Assembly: GCF_000614065.1 (NCBI RefSeq)
Contig: NZ_BAKG01000015.1
Location: 1 to 64,000 of the forward strand
Reading direction: 5' to 3'
Length of the DNA: 64,000 bases
Origin: Prevotella dentasini JCM 15908
Lineage (GTDB): Bacteria; Bacteroidota; Bacteroidia; Bacteroidales; Bacteroidaceae
The notes below the pieces were generated by a model that saw nothing but the letters and a program-made list of their open reading frames with translations, was not told where the DNA came from and did not search any database. Numbering within the stretch: position 1 is the stretch's first letter; each line of letters begins with the position of its first letter. Of this stretch, positions 6,276 to 60,484 are shown piece by piece. The position numbers and the translations under genes are program-made.

Positions 6276-7004
6276 TCGTAATTTCTTTACTTTATCTGTA
6301 GTCCTAAATGTTAAGACGAGCGCAAAGTTATTAAAAAAAAACGATACCTCGGAAAAACTATACAATAATTAAATGTTAAACACTTGTCCGGCTACTATTC
6401 ATGGCCTGTCAAAAGCTATGCAGACTACCCTCAACACCTTGACTTACGGCAAGCCATTTCACTGACAACAACAACTGAAAGGAGAAGAAAACAATTCAGA
6501 ATTTATATGACAATATTCACTCTGAGACTTGCGCAGAATCCACCAACGCCCCACATGCAGCAAAAATGGACCAAACGACCGCCCGCCACAACTCTCTGGA
6601 AGCCAAGATGTTAAGAAGAAGAAAACGAAGCTCTTATGTTTTTTCTTTCTCATTTGTATACTTTTCATCAGCGAAACGGCCATTATCACACGATAAAACA
6701 AGCACTTCTACAAGTCGGAAGTGCCGTTCTCGGATTATCAAAGTGCCGTTTTCGCATAGTCTCCGGAGGTCTGCCACCTTCAAAGACCTTCGTTCACCAC
6801 ACATCAAAGCAAATTATCTCGCATCTCGGATCTATTCCACAACTTTTCAAAAAGACTTTCTCTTGTAAATAATATTACAAAACAAGACCATGACCACAGG
6901 GACAAGCCACACCTTTGTCGCAAAAGTCATCAGCCCGAAGACGACAATTGACGGCTGCGAACAAAGCACTCCGGCAAGCCTGTCAGCACAATCTCCTTCT
7001 TTTC
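6276..7004. other. divergent intergenic region
   Basis: This 730-bp gap separates two divergent genes. Apart from the repeat cores at 6674-6752 and the promoter at 7005-7036, I found no gene. The short frames on both strands have no recognisable motif. Promoter elements for the minus-strand envelope operon should lie just right of 6275, but I could not pick a convincing pair. Confidence 0.5.
6674..6752. repeat. 22-bp array, family AAAGTGsCACTTT (degenerate)
   Basis: Cores lie at 6674-6686 (AAACGGCCATTAT), 6697-6709 (AACAAGCACTTCT), 6718-6730 (GAAGTGCCGTTCT) and 6740-6752 (AAAGTGCCGTTTT). The steps are 23, 21 and 22 bp. The last two match the cores of the arrays near 30.7, 46.3 and 60.3 kb. 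The first two are worn and are called mainly from spacing. Confidence 0.6.
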
Positions 7005-39201: not shown

Positions 39202-40287
39202 ATGCAAAACAAAACAACCTGTCTCTACGACAAGCACGTAAAATTGGGAGCATTGATGTCTCCCTTCGCTGGATATGAAATGCCTATCCAGTACACCGAC
39301 ATCACAAGTGAACACAATGCAGTCCGCCACCATTGTGGAGTATTTGATGTTTCCCACATGGGTGAGGTCATTGTTTCTGGCCATGATGCCGAGAAGTACG
39401 TTAACCATATATTCACCAACGATTTCACTGGTGTTCCTTCTGGGAAAGTTCTTTATGGAATGTTCTGCTATCCCGATGGTGGAGTTGTTGACGATACATG
39501 TATCAGCAAACTTGACACAAACCTTTACCTTATGACCATCAACGCCTCCAATATAGATAAGGATGTTGCATGGTTTGAAGAGAATGCAAAGGGTTATGAT
39601 GTTGTTCTCTGCCACAAAAGCGAATACTATGGCCAGCTCGCTGTACAGGGTCCGGAGGCCGAAGAGAAAGTTCAAGAACTTTTAGGCATAAAATGCGATG
39701 ACCTGAAATTCTACGAAGTGAAAACCGTAGAGAAATTTGATGAAACTATTATCATCTCCCGTACTGGCTATACTGGCGAAGACGGATTTGAAATTTACGG
39801 TACCCACAAGTTTATCGTTGACTGTTGGGACAAACTGATAGCAGGAGGCGTTACTCCCTGTGGACTTGGATGCCGCGACACACTCCGTTTCGAGGCTGGA
39901 CTTCCTCTCTATGGCGACGAGCTGACAGACAAGATTAGCCCTGTCATGGCAGGTCTTTCTATGTTTGCCAAGTTCGATAAGGAAGAATTTATCGGTAAGG
40001 AAGCTTTGTTGAAACAAAAGACAGAAGGTGTAGCACAGCGTCTTCGCGGTATTGAACTGGAAGGAAATGCCATTCCAAGACATGGCTACAAGATTCTTAA
40101 AGACGGCAAGGAAGTTGGTGAAGTTACAACTGGCTATCGCCTTATTTCTGTAGATAAAAGCTGTGCAGTGGCTCTCGTTGATGCTGATATAAAGTTGGGT
40201 GATCAGGTGGAAGTACAAATCCGCAAAAAAATATTCCCCGGCACCGTCATCAAAAAGAAGTTCTACGAAACAAAATACAAAAAATAA
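39202..40287 (+). CDS. gcvT: glycine cleavage T protein (aminomethyltransferase)
   Basis: GcvT moves the aminomethyl carbon from the H protein to tetrahydrofolate and frees ammonia. Its 361 residues include HVKLGALMSPFAGYEMPIQY, CGVFDVSHMGEVIVSG, ISRTGYTGEDGFEIYG and GLGCRDTLRFEAGLPLYGDE, all folate-site landmarks. It is the first enzyme gene of a five-gene operon with every subunit present and intact. Confidence 0.96.
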   Translation: MQNKTTCLYDKHVKLGALMSPFAGYEMPIQYTDITSEHNAVRHHCGVFDVSHMGEVIVSGHDAEKYVNHIFTNDFTGVPSGKVLYGMFCYPDGGVVDDTCISKLDTNLYLMTINASNIDKDVAWFEENAKGYDVVLCHKSEYYGQLAVQGPEAEEKVQELLGIKCDDLKFYEVKTVEKFDETIIISRTGYTGEDGFEIYGTHKFIVDCWDKLIAGGVTPCGLGCRDTLRFEAGLPLYGDELTDKISPVMAGLSMFAKFDKEEFIGKEALLKQKTEGVAQRLRGIELEGNAIPRHGYKILKDGKEVGEVTTGYRLISVDKSCAVALVDADIKLGDQVEVQIRKKIFPGTVIKKKFYETKYKK

Positions 40288-40393
40288 ATCAAGGCACATA
40301 GAGGAGTCCAAAGTCCACAAAGACACGTAGGAAACTATCAAAGGACAACACTATATATTAGAAAATCACAAACAATAAAAGAATAAGAATATT

Positions 40394-40774
40394 ATGGCAA
40401 AAGTTATTGAAGGACTCTATTATTCAGAGTCGCACGAGTATGTCAGAGTAGAAGGCGAAGTAGCTTACATTGGTATAACAGACTACGCACAGCATGCACT
40501 GGGTAACGTTGTTTATGTTGATATGCCAGATGCTGACGACGAGTTTGAGCAGGAAGAAGGCTTCGGTGCAGTAGAAAGCGTAAAGGCCGCTTCTGATCTC
40601 AATTCTCCTGTTTCTATCAAGGTGCTCGAAGTAAACGAAGCTCTCGAAGATGAACCAGAACTGCTCAACAAGGACGCTTTTGAGAACTGGATTATCAAGG
40701 TAGAGCTGACAGATAAGTCGCAGCTTGACAAGCTCATGGATGCTAAGGCATACGAGGCTTTCTGTGCCCAGTAA
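40394..40774 (+). CDS. gcvH: glycine cleavage H protein
   Basis: This 126-residue carrier swings its lipoyl arm between P, T and L proteins. The lipoylated Lys is in GAVESVKAASDLNSPV near residue 63, and the N-terminal YSESHEYVRVEGEVAYIGIT is typical. The genes for its partners lie on both sides. Confidence 0.97.
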   Translation: MAKVIEGLYYSESHEYVRVEGEVAYIGITDYAQHALGNVVYVDMPDADDEFEQEEGFGAVESVKAASDLNSPVSIKVLEVNEALEDEPELLNKDAFENWIIKVELTDKSQLDKLMDAKAYEAFCAQ

Positions 40775-40809
40775 TTCCCTGCCTATTTTTCCAACACCAA
40801 ATATTAATT

Positions 40810-40849
40810 CTCTCCATCTACACCGCATAAGCATGGTGTGGATGGAGAG
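40810..40849 (+). other. strong hairpin between gcvH and gcvPA
   Basis: CTCTCCATCTACACC and GGTGTGGATGGAGAG pair over 15 positions with one mismatch around a 10-nt loop. There is no U-tract, so it is not a classic terminator. It may set mRNA stability so that the small H protein is made in excess. Confidence 0.7.
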
Positions 40850-40885
40850 GTGTGACGAATAACCCAATCTTATATTACGGAAAAG

Positions 40886-42196
40886 ATGAACTATAAATAT
40901 TTTCCACATACAGAGGAGGAAATCCAGCAGATGCTTGACAAAATCGGCGTAAAAAACTTGGAAGACCTCTTTGCCGAAATTCCTGAAGAACTTCGCTATA
41001 GGGACAAGTGGGACATACCCGAAGCCAAGAGTGAAATGGAAATCAGGTCGTTCTTTAATGCCCTTGGCAACAAAAACAAGCAGCTGACCTGCTTCGCTGG
41101 TGCTGGTGTCTACGATCATTACACACCAAGCATTGTTCCTAACATCATCGGACGTTCTGAGTTCCTGACTTCATACACCCCCTATCAGGCAGAAATTTCC
41201 CAAGGTACACTCCATTATATTTTTGAGTTCCAAAGCATGATGGCAGAACTCACGGGTATGGATATTTCCAATGCGTCTATGTATGACGGCTCTACAGCTA
41301 CCGCCGAAGCAATGCTAATGGCCTTCAATGCCAGTCATAAGGCTGACACCGTGGCATATTCGGAGACTCTTGACCCAAAAATTATTTCTGTTCTCAAGAC
41401 TTACGCTCACTTCCATGGCGTGAATCTGACAGCCATTAAGGCTGACAATGGAATGACCTCTGTACAAGACCTCAACGAGCAACTCGCTACAGGAAAGGTT
41501 GCAGGTGTCATCGTCCAGCAGCCTAACTACTATGGCATAGTGGAAGATTTCACAGGCTTTGCCGATGCTTGCCATAAGAGCAAAGCCCTTTTTATTATAA
41601 ACAGCGTAGCTTCCGACCTTTCCTTACTGAAGACCCCGAAAGAATGGGGAGCTGACGTTGCTGTCGGCGACGTGCAAAGCCTCGGTATGCCTATGGCTTT
41701 CGGTGGCCCATACGCAGGCTATATGTGCTGTACAGAGAAACAAATGCGCAAATTGCCGGGTCGTATCGTGGGCGAAACCAAAGACAGCCGCGGACAGCGT
41801 GCTTTTGTCCTCACCCTCCAAGCCCGTGAACAACATATCCGCCGGCAAAAAGCAACATCGAACATCTGCTCCAACCAGAGTCTGATGGCCCTCTTTGTTA
41901 CGATCTACCTGTCAGTGATGGGTAAGGAAGGAGTTAAGGAGGTTGCACAGACCAGCTATGACGGTGCTCACTATCTCTGCGAGGAACTGCTCAAGACGGG
42001 TAAGGCGCAACTTGTCTACGAACGTCCCTTCTTCAATGAGTTCCTTATCCGCATAGACCATCGCGATGACTTTTTCGACAAGGCAGTGGCAGCAGGTATA
42101 CTTCCTGGTGTCAAGGTAGGCGAAGACCAACTACTCATAGCCGTTACCGAGAAACGCAGTAAGGAAGAAGTTGATGCACTAGTAGCACTTCTTTAA
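40886..42196 (+). CDS. gcvPA: glycine dehydrogenase (decarboxylating) subunit 1
   Basis: This 436-residue N-terminal half of the P protein opens YFPHTEEEIQQMLDKIGVKN and contains SMYDGSTATAEAMLMA and QSLGMPMAFGGPYAGYM. In Bacteroidetes and many Gram-positives the P protein is commonly two polypeptides, and both are here. It decarboxylates glycine with subunit 2 and loads the H protein. Confidence 0.96.
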   Translation: MNYKYFPHTEEEIQQMLDKIGVKNLEDLFAEIPEELRYRDKWDIPEAKSEMEIRSFFNALGNKNKQLTCFAGAGVYDHYTPSIVPNIIGRSEFLTSYTPYQAEISQGTLHYIFEFQSMMAELTGMDISNASMYDGSTATAEAMLMAFNASHKADTVAYSETLDPKIISVLKTYAHFHGVNLTAIKADNGMTSVQDLNEQLATGKVAGVIVQQPNYYGIVEDFTGFADACHKSKALFIINSVASDLSLLKTPKEWGADVAVGDVQSLGMPMAFGGPYAGYMCCTEKQMRKLPGRIVGETKDSRGQRAFVLTLQAREQHIRRQKATSNICSNQSLMALFVTIYLSVMGKEGVKEVAQTSYDGAHYLCEELLKTGKAQLVYERPFFNEFLIRIDHRDDFFDKAVAAGILPGVKVGEDQLLIAVTEKRSKEEVDALVALL

Positions 42197-42277
42197 TATC
42201 AAAACAGTCTCTTACAATGATAACCTACCCGAACTCTTCTCTATCAAGAGTCCGTGTAAAATAATCGCAGAAAGACA

Positions 42278-43756
42278 ATGAACAATAAATTATACGGCAA
42301 TCTGATTTTCGAACTTTCACATCCCGGACGCAGAGGTTACAGTCTGCCCAAGAATACATTCGGACATCATGAGATTCCATCCAATATAAAGAGGTCTACC
42401 GACGCTGCTCTTCCAGAGTGTGATGAGATGACAGTCGTTAGACACTACACCAACCATAGCGAAAATAATTTTGGTGTAGACAATGGGTTCTATCCTCTCG
42501 GGTCTTGTACCATGAAGTATAACCCTATCATCAATGAGGAGGTGGCAGCCATGCCTTCCTTCAGCAACATTCATCCGTTACAGCCAGAACATACCGTACA
42601 GGGTGCTTTGGAAGCGGAATACAATCTGCAAAGAGCACTCTCTGCCCTGACAGGCTTGGCTGATTTTACCCTCAATCCATACGCAGGTGCACATGGAGAG
42701 CTGACAGGTCTGATGATTATCCGCTCTTACCATCAAAGCCGCGGAGACGAGAAACGCAAGAAAGTTATCGTTCCCGATTCTGCACATGGCACCAACCCCG
42801 CTTCGGCAGCAGTTTGTGGGCTTGAGATAGTAGAGGTAAAGAGTACTTCCGAAGGATTGGTAGACGTTGAGGACCTCAAACCCCTATTGGGAGACGACAT
42901 CGCAGGAATGATGATGACCAACCCCAACACATTGGGTCTCTTTGAAACCGACATTCCCGAAATAGCCAAGCTCGTACACGAATGTGGCGGACTGATGTAT
43001 TATGACGGTGCCAACCTTAATCCACTCTTAGGAGTAGCCCGTCCGGGCGACATGGGATTTGATGTCATGCACATTAACCTGCACAAGACCTTCTCTACTC
43101 CTCACGGTGGCGGTGGTCCCGGCTCTGGTCCTGTTGGCGTTCGGGAAGACCTCGTAAGATTCCTGCCAAAACCACATGTAGTCAAGACTTCAGAAGGTTT
43201 CACTACAGAAAAAGGTTGCGAAACAGAATACAATGTCGAAAGCAGCCACGTCAGCACATTTTTGGGTAACTTCCTCGTCAGCCTGCGTGCCTATGTCTAC
43301 ATTCTCACGCTCGGAAAGGAAAACATCAAGATGGTTGGCCCACTTGCTACTCTCAATGCCAACTATGTCAAGGAGTGCCTGAAAGATGTTTACGAACTTC
43401 CGATAGATGTGCTTTGCAAACATGAATTTGTCTTTGACGGACTGAAGGACAAGAGTACGGGCATCACTACAATGGATGTTGCCAAGCGTCTGCTCGACTA
43501 CGGCTATCACGCTCCTACCATCTACTTCCCGCTTCTCTTCCATGAAGCCATGATGATAGAGCCTACCGAAAACGAAAGCAAGGAGACCATTGACAGCTTT
43601 ATCAGCATCATGCGTACAATAGCCCAAGAGGCCCATGATACGCCGGAGATTGTCAAGGATGCTCCACGCACAACACCTATTGGACGTGTAGACGACGTAC
43701 TTGCTGCAAAGCATCCTGTCGTAACCTACCGTCAAATGCTGCAAGAAGCACAATAA
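42278..43756 (+). CDS. gcvPB: glycine dehydrogenase (decarboxylating) subunit 2
   Basis: The 492-residue C-terminal half holds the PLP-binding lysine in MHINLHKTFSTPHGGGGPGS. NPYAGAHGELTGLMIIRSYH and DSAHGTNPASAAVCG are family motifs. It ends 13 nt before lpdA. Confidence 0.97.
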   Translation: MNNKLYGNLIFELSHPGRRGYSLPKNTFGHHEIPSNIKRSTDAALPECDEMTVVRHYTNHSENNFGVDNGFYPLGSCTMKYNPIINEEVAAMPSFSNIHPLQPEHTVQGALEAEYNLQRALSALTGLADFTLNPYAGAHGELTGLMIIRSYHQSRGDEKRKKVIVPDSAHGTNPASAAVCGLEIVEVKSTSEGLVDVEDLKPLLGDDIAGMMMTNPNTLGLFETDIPEIAKLVHECGGLMYYDGANLNPLLGVARPGDMGFDVMHINLHKTFSTPHGGGGPGSGPVGVREDLVRFLPKPHVVKTSEGFTTEKGCETEYNVESSHVSTFLGNFLVSLRAYVYILTLGKENIKMVGPLATLNANYVKECLKDVYELPIDVLCKHEFVFDGLKDKSTGITTMDVAKRLLDYGYHAPTIYFPLLFHEAMMIEPTENESKETIDSFISIMRTIAQEAHDTPEIVKDAPRTTPIGRVDDVLAAKHPVVTYRQMLQEAQ

Positions 43757-43769
43757 CACCCTCTTCATT

Positions 43770-45134
43770 ATGACTAAGACAGATATTATTATAATTGGTG
43801 CAGGTCCCGGTGGCTATCGTGCTGCTGCCTACGCAGCCCATGAAGGCAAGAAAGTGACCATCATCGAGAAGCGCAATGCTGGCGGAACCTGCCTGAATGA
43901 AGGCTGCATCCCCACTAAGAGCTTTGCACACGATGCTGACCTCTATCGCAATCCTCTCCTTTCGTGCATTGGAGGCGGACAGGTAAAGTTCAAGTATATT
44001 CAGGAACGCAAGCAGAATGTAGTGGCACAGCTCCGGCAGGGTGTAGAATCCCTGCTGGCACAACCCGGCATCACCTACATCAAGGGGGAAGCCCGGTTTG
44101 TTTCGGAAAAGGTCATAGAGGTAAACGGAGAGCAGATGACAGCCGAGAACATCATTATTGCGACAGGTTCCCGGCCCAAGATGCTTCCTTTCCTGCCAAA
44201 TCTTCAGTCAGAAGAGGGAAAGCCTTATGTGGGTAAACTCATGACTTCCACTGAATTGCTTGACATAGACTACGTGCCTTCCAACCTTGTAATCATCGGT
44301 GCAGGAGTTATCGGAATGGAGTTTGCATCAGCTTTCGAGACTTTCGGAGCCAATGTTACGGTGGTTGAGTTTATGAAGGAGTGTCTTCCTACGCTTGATT
44401 CAGACCTTGCAAAACGTCTCCGCAAGACTCTTGAGAAGCGCGGCATCAACTTCCACCTGCAAAGCGGGGTCAACAAGATAGAGCTTGCCAAGCAGGACGA
44501 GCATGAAGGACTCATGGTGCACTTCACCCAGAAAGGAGAAGAGCAGCAGGTCTTTGGCGATGTCGTTCTCGTAGCTACAGGACGTGAGCCAGTTTTGGAA
44601 AACCTGCATCTTGAAGCAGCCGGAATCGTATCAGACAGAAAAGGAATCACGGTTGACGACAATATGCAGACCAATGTGCCGGGCGTATATGCCATTGGTG
44701 ACGTTAACGGGCGGCAGATGCTCGCACACGCAGCGACTTTCCAAGGTTTCCGGGCCATCAACCATATCTTGGGAAAGACCGACTTTATCCGTTTCGATAT
44801 TATGCCTTCCGCTATTTTCACCTATCCGGAGGCAGCCAGTGTAGGCCTGACGGAAGATGCGTGCAAGAAAGAAGGCATCAAGTTCGTCTCCAAGAAAGGG
44901 TTCTACCGCTCCAACGGCAAGGCCATCGCTATGGAGGAGACCGAAGGTATGCTGAAATTGCTGGCAGACACCAATGGCAAACTTTTGGGCTGCCATGTAT
45001 ATGGTGCGCACGCAGCCGATTTGGTACAGGAAGTTGCTGCACTGATGAATCGCGATACGACCATCGATGAGGCAAAGGACATTATCCATATCCACCCGAC
45101 ACTTGGAGAAATCTTCCAAGATGCAATTATTTAG
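43770..45134 (+). CDS. lpdA: dihydrolipoyl dehydrogenase (L protein)
   Basis: The 454-residue flavoprotein re-oxidises the lipoyl arm of GcvH. The FAD motif IIIGAGPGGYRAAAYAAHEG, the redox disulfide GGTCLNEGCIPTKS, the NAD motif LVIIGAGVIGMEFASAFETF and the active-site pair HIHPTLGE are all present. It closes the gcv operon, so this copy most likely serves glycine cleavage, although it could also serve 2-oxoacid complexes. Confidence 0.95.
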   Translation: MTKTDIIIIGAGPGGYRAAAYAAHEGKKVTIIEKRNAGGTCLNEGCIPTKSFAHDADLYRNPLLSCIGGGQVKFKYIQERKQNVVAQLRQGVESLLAQPGITYIKGEARFVSEKVIEVNGEQMTAENIIIATGSRPKMLPFLPNLQSEEGKPYVGKLMTSTELLDIDYVPSNLVIIGAGVIGMEFASAFETFGANVTVVEFMKECLPTLDSDLAKRLRKTLEKRGINFHLQSGVNKIELAKQDEHEGLMVHFTQKGEEQQVFGDVVLVATGREPVLENLHLEAAGIVSDRKGITVDDNMQTNVPGVYAIGDVNGRQMLAHAATFQGFRAINHILGKTDFIRFDIMPSAIFTYPEAASVGLTEDACKKEGIKFVSKKGFYRSNGKAIAMEETEGMLKLLADTNGKLLGCHVYGAHAADLVQEVAALMNRDTTIDEAKDIIHIHPTLGEIFQDAII

Positions 45135-45173
45135 AAATAAATATTGCTGATTTGGGAAAAAGTATTATCTTTG

Positions 45174-45515
45174 CAGAAGATAAGTCGCACTGGGACGATT
45201 GGGGATAAATTCTCATAGTGCCCGTCTGCCTTTATCTTCACAGAGAGAAAGGATAAAGATTAGAGTCGTATCGATTCGATCGGGATAGTCATCAAATAAA
45301 TCAGAAAAACCGGGAAGACTTCTCTTGCCAATGGCGGGCCACATAAACCGCATTTCAGCGACTAAGCCGCAAGGCCGGTGGATTACAACGACGGAGAGTT
45401 CTCTTATCATTGATACTCGGACTTTTCATCACATCGTCGATACGACTTTTCCCATTTCCTCCGTTAGAGGAACAACAGGGTGAGGCTTCCGTAAGGATGC
45501 CCCACCCTATTTTTA
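45174..45515 (+). ncRNA. structured ~340-nt leader or ncRNA candidate upstream of ribE
   Basis: A -7 element TATCTTTG (45166-45173) precedes a gene-free stretch that ends in a terminator (45477-45515: AGGGTGAGGC, loop, GCCCCACCCT, then ATTTTTATT). Inside are AAGATAA/TTATCTT (45177-45183 and 45232-45238), a nested GCACT/AGTGC, and a perfect 11-bp long-range pairing AGTCGTATCGA/TCGATACGACT (45264-45274 and 45437-45447). The whole lies 64 nt before ribE. I could not match FMN riboswitch, RNase P, tmRNA or cobalamin riboswitch signatures. It may be a regulatory leader or an independent RNA. Confidence 0.5.
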
Positions 45516-45578
45516 TTGAAGGTTTCAGGGACGGATAATTCCGTTCCTGCCCATAACATTTAATCAGAGAAAACAGCT

Positions 45579-46184
45579 ATGTTCTCAGGAATTGTAGAAG
45601 AAATGGCCACCGTAGTGGCCATAGAGCACGACAAGGAAAATATCGACTTCACCCTTCGCTGCTCGTTTACCAATGAGTTGAAAATAGACCAAAGCATCGC
45701 CCACAACGGTGTTTGTCTGACAGTTGTCCGCTTCAAGGACGACACCTATACGGTAACGGCAATGAAAGAGACCCTCGACCGCTCTAATCTGGGACTTCTC
45801 CGAATAGGCGACCGGGTTAATATTGAGCGTTCCATGTTGATGAACGGAAGGTTGGACGGGCACATTGTGCAAGGGCATGTCGACGAAACTGCCACATGCG
45901 TGGCAATGGAAGATGCCGATGGCAGCACCTACTTCACCTTCCAGTACCCTTTCGACAAGAAGCTGGCCCAACGCGGCTATTTTACGGTCGACAAAGGATC
46001 GGTTACCGTCAATGGTGTTTCCCTCACGGTTTGTGAGCCGACAGAGAACACTTTCAAGGTTGCCATTATTCCCTACACCCGTACCAACACCAACTTTGCC
46101 GACATTCAGGTTGGCTCAGTTGTCAATCTTGAGTTTGACATTCTTGGTAAATATATATCGCGCTTAAATACGCTTGCTAAATAA
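45579..46184 (+). CDS. ribE: riboflavin synthase alpha chain
   Basis: RibE dismutates two lumazines to riboflavin. The two lumazine-binding barrels are plain: MFSGIVEEMATV and HNGVCLTV in the first, GHIVQGHVDETATCV and VNGVSLTVCEPTENTF in the second. The 201-residue length is typical. It stands alone, behind a structured terminator-ended leader. Confidence 0.96.
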   Translation: MFSGIVEEMATVVAIEHDKENIDFTLRCSFTNELKIDQSIAHNGVCLTVVRFKDDTYTVTAMKETLDRSNLGLLRIGDRVNIERSMLMNGRLDGHIVQGHVDETATCVAMEDADGSTYFTFQYPFDKKLAQRGYFTVDKGSVTVNGVSLTVCEPTENTFKVAIIPYTRTNTNFADIQVGSVVNLEFDILGKYISRLNTLAK

Positions 46185-46309: not shown

Positions 46310-46394
46310 TAAACGACACTTTGATGATGACAAAATGAAAGTGGCACTTTCACACAACCAAAACGGCACTTTCACATCGTCAAAGTGCCGTTTT
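46310..46394. repeat. 22-bp array, family AAAGTGsCACTTT
   Basis: Cores: 46310-46322 (TAAACGACACTTT), 46338-46350 (AAAGTGGCACTTT), 46360-46372 (AAAACGGCACTTT), 46382-46394 (AAAGTGCCGTTTT). The steps are 28, 22 and 22 bp. It lies between convergent ribE and gph. The rest of that gap (46185-46537) has no gene. Confidence 0.9.
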
Positions 46395-54048: not shown

Positions 54049-54514
54049 TCTGCGTGCCCCAATGTCCTTTGCACATTAACATAAACATACGGCTTCTTTG
54101 GAAACAGGACAGCCTATCATATCAGACTCCTTGGTAACAACGGTTTGAGGTTTTGTGCCAAAGGCATAGGAATACCTAAAAAGTAGTATAAATATGGCAA
54201 TTAAATTGTGGATTTATCAGAATCTTTGTACTTTTGCAAAAGAAAAAGAGTGCAGCTACCTGATTACGTTCTCGTCAGCCATTGGAGTTTATAGTGTTAA
54301 GAATTGAAGTGATAGCCTAATCATTAATCCATTTGCCGTACGGGAGTAGCAATCATCCCTGCACTCATTTTTCTAGTGCAAAGGTAATATCCAATATCGT
54401 GTCGTGCAATACTCAAAAATCAGTATTCTCTCAAATACCTACAAATGGTGATTGTATGATTCCTATATTTTTTGTTATTTTGCACAGAGAAATTTATTCT
54501 ATGAAGCGAACCAG

Positions 54515-60310: not shown

Positions 60311-60389
60311 AAATGGGCTTTCCGGTCTAACGAAAGTGCCACTTTGACAAGCTCAAAGTGGCACTTTCACAATGCGAAAACGATACTTT
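60311..60389. repeat. 22-bp array, family AAAGTGsCACTTT
   Basis: Cores at 60311-60323 (AAATGGGCTTTCC, worn), 60333-60345 (AAAGTGCCACTTT), 60355-60367 (AAAGTGGCACTTT) and 60377-60389 (AAAACGATACTTT). Steps are exactly 22 bp. It sits between the terminator of the outer-membrane protein gene and the dead IS3 copy. Confidence 0.9.
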
Positions 60390-60484
60390 CGCTTTCCCGT
60401 TTTTAACATGTTGATATTCTGGTGTTTGCTTTTATTTGTCTTCCCTTTGCCTATTTGCAAGTTATTCGTCTTGCTTTATAGGAA

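Follow-up and report, generated by a model that had tools for sequence, protein, structure and literature searches.

A Bacteroidales 6S RNA gene upstream of ribE in Prevotella dentasini, with a 5′ hairpin that resembles a dispersed repeat

What is the structured RNA encoded just upstream of the riboflavin synthase gene in Prevotella dentasini JCM 15908? We examined this question in a window of 64,000 nucleotides, which is the whole stretch of DNA analysed here. A preliminary description had marked positions 45174–45515 of the window as a structured, terminator-ended RNA of 340 nt without an ORF or an FMN riboswitch core, and had left open whether it is a new type of leader controlling ribE or an independent non-coding RNA. 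The gene that follows is ribE: the 201-aa protein encoded at 45579–46184 on the + strand matches NCBIfam TIGR00187 with 193.3 bits against a cut-off of 156.6, which confirms the riboflavin synthase named earlier. The upstream side of the RNA gene is occupied by a glycine cleavage row (gcvT, gcvH, gcvPA, gcvPB and dihydrolipoyl dehydrogenase, 39202–45134), and only 5 of the 31 same-genus loci of this RNA have dihydrolipoyl dehydrogenase as a neighbour closer than 1.5 kb. On the + strand no ORF of at least 60 aa lies within 45174–45515, as had been stated; the statement does not extend to the − strand, where a 65-aa ORF spans 45213–45410.

The identity of the RNA was settled by an Rfam scan of the whole window, the search that the preliminary description had called for. 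The sole match over its gathering score was RF01693 (Bacteroidales-1), at 45264–45453 on the + strand, with 110.8 bits against a cut-off of 60 and with model positions 1–179, i.e. the full length, covered. The Rfam label for this family, ‘6S-Bacteroidales RNA suggested’, is worded as a suggestion. The RNA at 45174–45515 is therefore already known in kind, as a Bacteroidales 6S RNA; the idea of an independent non-coding RNA holds, but for a known one, and the idea of a new type falls with the match to a 6S family. It resembles Bacteroidales-1 (Weinberg et al. 2010, PMC2864571, as far as the part of that paper used here goes) in the full-length match, the AUGGCGGGCC and GGAUUACA blocks and the taxonomic range, and differs from it by an extra hairpin of ~65 nt between the −7 box and the core. 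Other Rfam rows near the locus (mir-350, RsaE, snoU61 and osmY) were rejected as they score far under their gathering scores, and a tmRNA or tRNA identity was rejected because a scan of the window for both returned none. As a whole, the locus is very probably a Prevotella 6S RNA gene of the RF01693 family, whose product would hold RNA polymerase as a promoter mimic, with an acquired 5′ hairpin and with ribE expressed by read-through.

The genome of P. dentasini carries one RF01693 copy. Using 60 genomes of the order, its own included, and a threshold of E ≤ 0.001, RF01693 was present in 36 genomes and above cut-off in 35 (own included); these comprise 31 of 36 same-genus genomes and 5 of 24 other genomes of the order. 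All 21 same-genus genomes listed as at least 90% complete contain it, and the 24 genomes without a match are 19 of other families and 5 same-genus genomes at 50–85% completeness. In a class-wide sample it was found in 10 of 149 genomes, 5 of them over the cut-off. The canonical 6S model RF00013 matched none of the same 60 genomes at E ≤ 0.001, own included, and was positive in 5 of 14 controls, which include E. coli and B. subtilis; RF00013 is not known to extend to Bacteroidales, so this null carries little weight. The control genome Bacteroides ihuae has a match to RF01693 and none to RF00013 or the 6S-Flavo model RF01685. RF01685 likewise has no match in the P. dentasini genome. At one locus in a genome of the same class (L050/L056, G343:C1:875172-875320), matches to RF01693 (41.1 bits) and RF01685 (49.3 bits) overlap on the same strand, both below their cut-offs. 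This locus may connect the two 6S models of Bacteroidota.

A 6S RNA is built from a closing stem, a central bubble and a terminal stem. Judged by the model match and by co-variation, this is the core architecture of 45264–45453. The stretch 45174–45515 folds at −104.7 kcal/mol, a stability reached by none of 100 dinucleotide shuffles (z −3.09). A perfect 11-bp pairing joins 45264–45274 to 45437–45447 and forms the closing stem. The central bubble, with 45281–45309 facing 45421–45432, is spanned by no more than two short helices, one of 3 pairs and a weak one of 5 (45310–45314 with 45416–45420; CCGGG/CUCGG here and CCGAG/CUCGG in relatives). The terminal stem carries the conserved AUGGCGGGCC block on its 5′ side (45318–45342) and the invariant GGAUUACA block on its 3′ side (45378–45399). 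The long-range pairing and nested stems of the preliminary description were thus recovered. Its 340-nt extent holds for the structured stretch, and the part conserved in RF01693 is limited to 45264–45453.

Compensating changes in relatives were sought in 39 RF01693 sequences over the cut-off, with six sub-threshold loci (L048–L052 and L063) left out. The tested structure was written down from the window plus Rfam's stem, and the sequences were aligned by MAFFT, which shifted the last bases of L011, L012, L014, L018 and L027 and so broke their closing-stem pairs. Across the 39 homologues, 88.7% of cells in the whole structure are standard pairs, against 38.5–44.3% when partners are slid by 1–3 columns; 23 of 38 pairs show changes on both sides, and none of 500 shuffles reached any of the five measures. 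In the closing stem, 88.7% of cells are paired and 10 of the 11 pairs are compensatory, i.e. at least one sequence has both partners changed, so that the pairing is conserved. The two apical helices have 89.2% and 100% of cells paired, with 10 of 16 pairs changed on both sides, and the inner CCGAG/CUCGG helix is weak at 73.8%. The closing stem likewise emerges from an RNAalifold prediction that had only the alignment as input. Its positions are unpaired in Rfam's RF01693 structure line, in contrast to the pairing here, and the 39 sequences were therefore not picked for this stem. As the terminal stem belongs to the model that found the 39, the closing stem is the sole independent structural test. 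RNAalifold also offers an alternative in which the CCGAG arm pairs with a local AUCGG instead of CUCGG, and such an alternative pairing inside the bubble would suit the refolding of a 6S RNA upon release. On the antisense of the bubble, a TAnnTTTG-like sequence is not kept in all aligned rows, so the alignment does not show promoter mimicry at the level of sequence.

The −7 box claimed earlier is TATCTTTG at 45166–45173 (+), which fits TAnnTTTG, the −7 consensus as quoted in the part of PMC7366714 covered here. In 35 of the 39 sequences such a box starts 15–70 nt ahead of the core (shuffles: mean 1.7, maximum 6), and it does so 15–68 nt before the core at 44 of 48 6S loci found through RibE. 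The four exceptions among the 39 are L016, L030 and L061, where a scan of 130 nt found no box, and the window itself, with its box at 98 nt; in the other 38 homologues over the cut-off, any such box starts at most 58 nt ahead of the core. At 45233–45240 (+), TATCTTCA is a possible decayed second −7 box with two mismatches; it precedes the core by ~31 nt, about as the −7 box does in relatives. The final terminator is also present, as an intrinsic-terminator-like hairpin with a T-rich tail at 45477–45517 (+; −20.5 kcal/mol). The hairpin proper, 45477–45508, was not picked up by a consensus terminator scan, probably due to its interrupted stem.

We next consider the relation to ribE. At 29 of 31 same-genus RF01693 loci ribE lies downstream on the same strand with a gap of 15–309 nt, the exceptions being L030, where ribE is convergent, and L029, with no ribE within 1.5 kb. 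Starting instead from RibE and examining up to 1500 nt upstream, a 6S core was found on the same strand at 48 of 58 loci; the loci found by the two routes overlap partly and the counts are not additive. Named loci of the RibE-found set are mostly Prevotella/Prevotellaceae, plus Segatella and Hoylesella. The ten without 6S are L120 and L139 (both Prevotella), L163, which has only 106 nt of upstream sequence, and L166–L169 and L171–L173, from Dysgonomonas, Proteiniphilum, Bacteroidaceae, Paludibacteraceae, Candidatus Caccoplasma, Bacteroidales and Flavobacteriales. By gene order, the 6S–ribE link is conserved across the genus. We found no description of it in the titles and abstracts of the papers listed; in the portions of the two key papers covered, ribE is not mentioned in PMC2864571 and occurs in PMC7366714 only within an author name.

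The 6S–ribE gap is at most 45 nt in 16 of 29 loci, and no gap among the 29 contains TAnnTTTG; in most of the species, transcription of ribE therefore probably comes through the 6S gene, as far as TAnnTTTG promoters, which the scan covered, are concerned. A terminator-like hairpin occurs in nine of the 29 gaps (the window and eight others, that of L062 being weak) and is lacking in 20. In the window, the −20.5 kcal/mol hairpin between 6S and ribE suggests partial termination, and the RNA probably forms the 5′ part of a 6S–ribE transcript.

Could the RNA then be a cis-acting leader of ribE, of the riboswitch or attenuator kind, that senses flavin or another signal and sets read-through at 45477–45517, rather than a 6S RNA? 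The same-strand order at 29 of 31 genus loci with TAnnTTTG-free gaps, and the RNA upstream at 48 of 58 RibE-found loci, are what such a leader would show, and Weinberg et al. (PMC2864571, in the part used here) enter ‘?’ for cis-regulation and for switch under Bacteroidales-1. Outside the genus, however, ribE was found within ~1.5 kb downstream at none of eight RF01693 loci above the cut-off and none of six below it, and the null at the eight indicates that the RNA is kept independently of ribE. With a terminator-like hairpin in only nine of 29 gaps, an attenuator is not conserved either. An FMN riboswitch or another Rfam cis-regulator was rejected for want of a match, that for FMN being absent from the window at the gathering threshold and from 44800–45900 at E ≤ 10, in agreement with the missing core noted at the outset. 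We therefore regard a leader in place of a 6S RNA as highly improbable. The earlier idea of a new leader survives only in that the position before ribE is conserved in the genus with TAnnTTTG-free gaps; a new ligand-sensing leader is unsupported.

Compatible with the 6S reading, and in our estimate somewhat favoured, is that the 6S RNA is at the same time the 5′ part of a dicistronic 6S–ribE precursor, which would couple ribE supply to 6S transcription and from which processing would free the 6S RNA. The short gaps (16 of 29), the lack of TAnnTTTG in all 29 and of a terminator-like hairpin in 20 argue for it, as does E. coli, whose dicistronic SsrS-FAU1 (ygfA) transcript yields 6S RNA by processing (PMC7641849, in the portion consulted). 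The likeness to ssrS-ygfA is that the gene after 6S encodes a metabolic enzyme and shares the 6S transcript, the sharing being presumed here (same source and portion); the enzyme gene is a different one, ribE, and the RNA belongs to another Rfam family. Against a shared precursor stand the strong terminator between the genes in the window, likewise present at eight other loci, and the possibility that ribE uses another type of promoter.

For the Prevotella 6S RNA gene we envisage the following course. Transcription would start just past the −7 box that begins at 45166; most of it would end at the hairpin 45477–45517, and transcripts passing this terminator would supply ribE. From 6S biology and the report on B. 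thetaiotaomicron, the RNA would mimic a melted promoter and bind RNA polymerase bearing the primary sigma factor, to be released once the polymerase has used the bubble as template for a short product RNA. In B. thetaiotaomicron a 6S RNA was reported, along with product RNAs of two classes (Ryan et al. 2020, PMC7366714, in the part covered). That species is of the same order, and a Bacteroides control genome has RF01693; the equivalence of the reported RNA to the RF01693 RNA is putative. The setting differs in that ribE is not within ~1.5 kb downstream at the eight above-cut-off RF01693 loci outside the genus of the window. The front hairpin of ~65 nt would be a copy of the repeat that the gene has acquired and that is either removed by trimming or tolerated.

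This hairpin (45176–45239, +, −21.9 kcal/mol) is the sole part of the locus that may be new. It could be argued that it is a functional part of the 6S RNA rather than an acquired copy: it is predicted to fold, and it lies downstream of a TAnnTTTG box that is the sole one within 130 nt ahead of the core. Its stability, however, is equalled by 23 of 200 shuffles (z only −1.39), and in the other 38 homologues the box, where present, starts at most 58 nt from the core. In 299 same-genus genomes no similar sequence was found at any other 6S gene examined, nor was a unit-like palindrome found within 150 nt upstream of the 48 RibE-found cores, and similar units sit at unrelated genes. A functional hairpin is thus unlikely, and by similarity the −7 box and hairpin together appear to be one diverged copy, 67 bp long (45166–45232, +), of a dispersed Prevotella hairpin repeat of ~66 bp.

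This segment opens with the −7 box, which is the first half of the repeat signature TATCTTTGCAnAAGATA, an exact palindrome at 45166–45182, and ends at TATCTTCA; two further palindrome matches in the window, at 54229 and 54370, are weak with three mismatches each. The segment as a whole occurs once in its own genome, where the first 18 of its bases are also part of 66-bp tandem arrays. Searching the 299 same-genus genomes with the hairpin returned similar sequence in three others, with near-whole units only in G017, where they are 77% identical to the window hairpin and located at two places, neither of them its 6S gene; matches in G314 and G021 (23 and 26 nt) were dropped, being away from any unit. 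In the reverse comparison, the G017 unit aligns to the window with 79% identity over query positions 1–72 of 81 (E 5.5e-11), the window unit being 67 bp and not in tandem. This is the one match of the G017 unit in the P. dentasini genome (G000), i.e. the 6S leader itself. Elsewhere the same query gave 41 alignment pieces in G010, 11 in G017, 5 in G003, 3 in G026, 1 in G314 and 0 in G021, some of them partial. Tandem copies in the P. dentasini genome were seen at L032 (G000:C41:174574-174734), at L037 (G000:C26:81290 to the contig end) and at L034 and L036 (G000:C17:60-150, at the contig start); the units of C17 and C26 do not differ in sequence and both lie at contig ends, so that a single array may have been split in assembly.

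The pattern TATCTTTGCA N41-71 TATCTTTGCA matched in 83 of 299 same-genus genomes, a count that includes CRISPR-like arrays with a 76–78-bp period, compared with 1 of 299 for the reversed control. Among the matches listed there are 31 unit clusters in 30 loci, from 19 of 20 places in G010 (one gave none) and 11 elsewhere. Units are spaced by 66 bp, except for 73 in G024. Orientation was counted without L075, the same place as L086, and L098, where no unit was found. Among the matches listed, 29 of the 31 clusters have an ORF downstream within the locus, 27 on the same strand and 2 on the opposite strand, and upstream neighbours are on the same strand in 18 cases and the opposite in 12; at L032, one of the two opposite-strand cases, a 106-aa + strand ORF is also present. 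The first −7 box is unlike the later ones in several arrays (TAACTTTG in L095, TACCTTTG in L096 and TATTTTTG in L040), which is expected if the element inserts behind a native −7 box. The hairpin itself co-varies among units. In an alignment of 28 rows (27 of 45 distinct units plus the window), 95.5% of cells pair, compared with 32.1–46.7% in slid versions, and 11 of 19 pairs are changed on both sides; of 500 shuffles, none reached four of the measures and 16 reached the number of pair types. As most rows are from G010 (18 of 28) and three from G000, they do not represent independent species.

Several known sources of such a repeat were considered. A REP/RAYT-type element driven by a Y1 transposase was rejected because the occurrence of PF01797 does not track the repeats: it is in 7 of 14 genomes, absent from 7 genomes with the TATCTTTGCA pattern and present in the pattern-free G016 and G028. 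A known Rfam RNA was rejected as well, three loci giving only mir-942 far under the cut-off. CRISPR as the cause of the 66-bp spacing was rejected since the 66-bp units have no variable spacer and the CRISPR-like arrays have a period of 76–78 bp. Those arrays, with a repeat of ~47 bp containing TATCTTTG and variable spacers of 29–31 bp, were observed at L079 (G017:C29:2015-3023), G024:C1:2731537-2732236, L081 (G187), L083 (G108) and G161:C4:1189673-1190372. A promoter inside each repeat is known for some type II-C CRISPR arrays, and TATCTTTG may possibly serve as a promoter within every repeat here. A separate motif, AACGGCACTTTC, has 20 copies on both strands of the window at up to two mismatches (5.6 expected; 20 reached by 0 of 100 shuffles), partly grouped as inverted pairs, at 6717–6750, 46312–46392 and 60332–60390, and is perhaps a second dispersed palindromic repeat with one cluster right after ribE.

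The closest likeness is the BrickBuilt MITE of Porphyromonas gingivalis (PMC4596501, in the part covered here), also a tandem intergenic element of Bacteroidota with promoter elements. According to the same portion of that source, BrickBuilt has a 23-nt unit with leader and tail flanking, whereas the Prevotella unit is ~66 bp, forms one long hairpin and is mostly oriented with the downstream gene. No description of the 66-bp repeat was found in the titles and abstracts of the papers listed. The 6S gene is the locus that was compared with and without the unit. We tentatively propose, as a reading we hold slightly more doubtful than probable, that an undescribed Prevotella hairpin family of ~66 bp settles behind −7 boxes (TAnCTTTGCA), brings a −7 box at its 3′ end, expands in tandem and heads many transcripts, that one copy captured the 6S promoter here, and that the 6S–ribE transcript is nearly genus-wide.

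As a 6S RNA, the locus is an ordinary, expected regulator in one more Prevotella, and co-variation of its closing stem supplies a part of the 6S architecture that is missing from the RF01693 structure line. What makes the locus of interest is its conserved link to ribE and its promoter-anchored hairpin repeat, the functions of both being putative. The 6S–ribE order across the genus repeats the ssrS-ygfA layout of Proteobacteria with another enzyme, and why 6S precedes metabolic genes becomes testable. If the proposed capture is true, 6S, a global transcription regulator, itself begins with a repeat element in P. dentasini. Should the promoter-anchored hairpin repeats prove to be mobile or regulatory, they would constitute a new mode of promoter remodelling in Bacteroidota.
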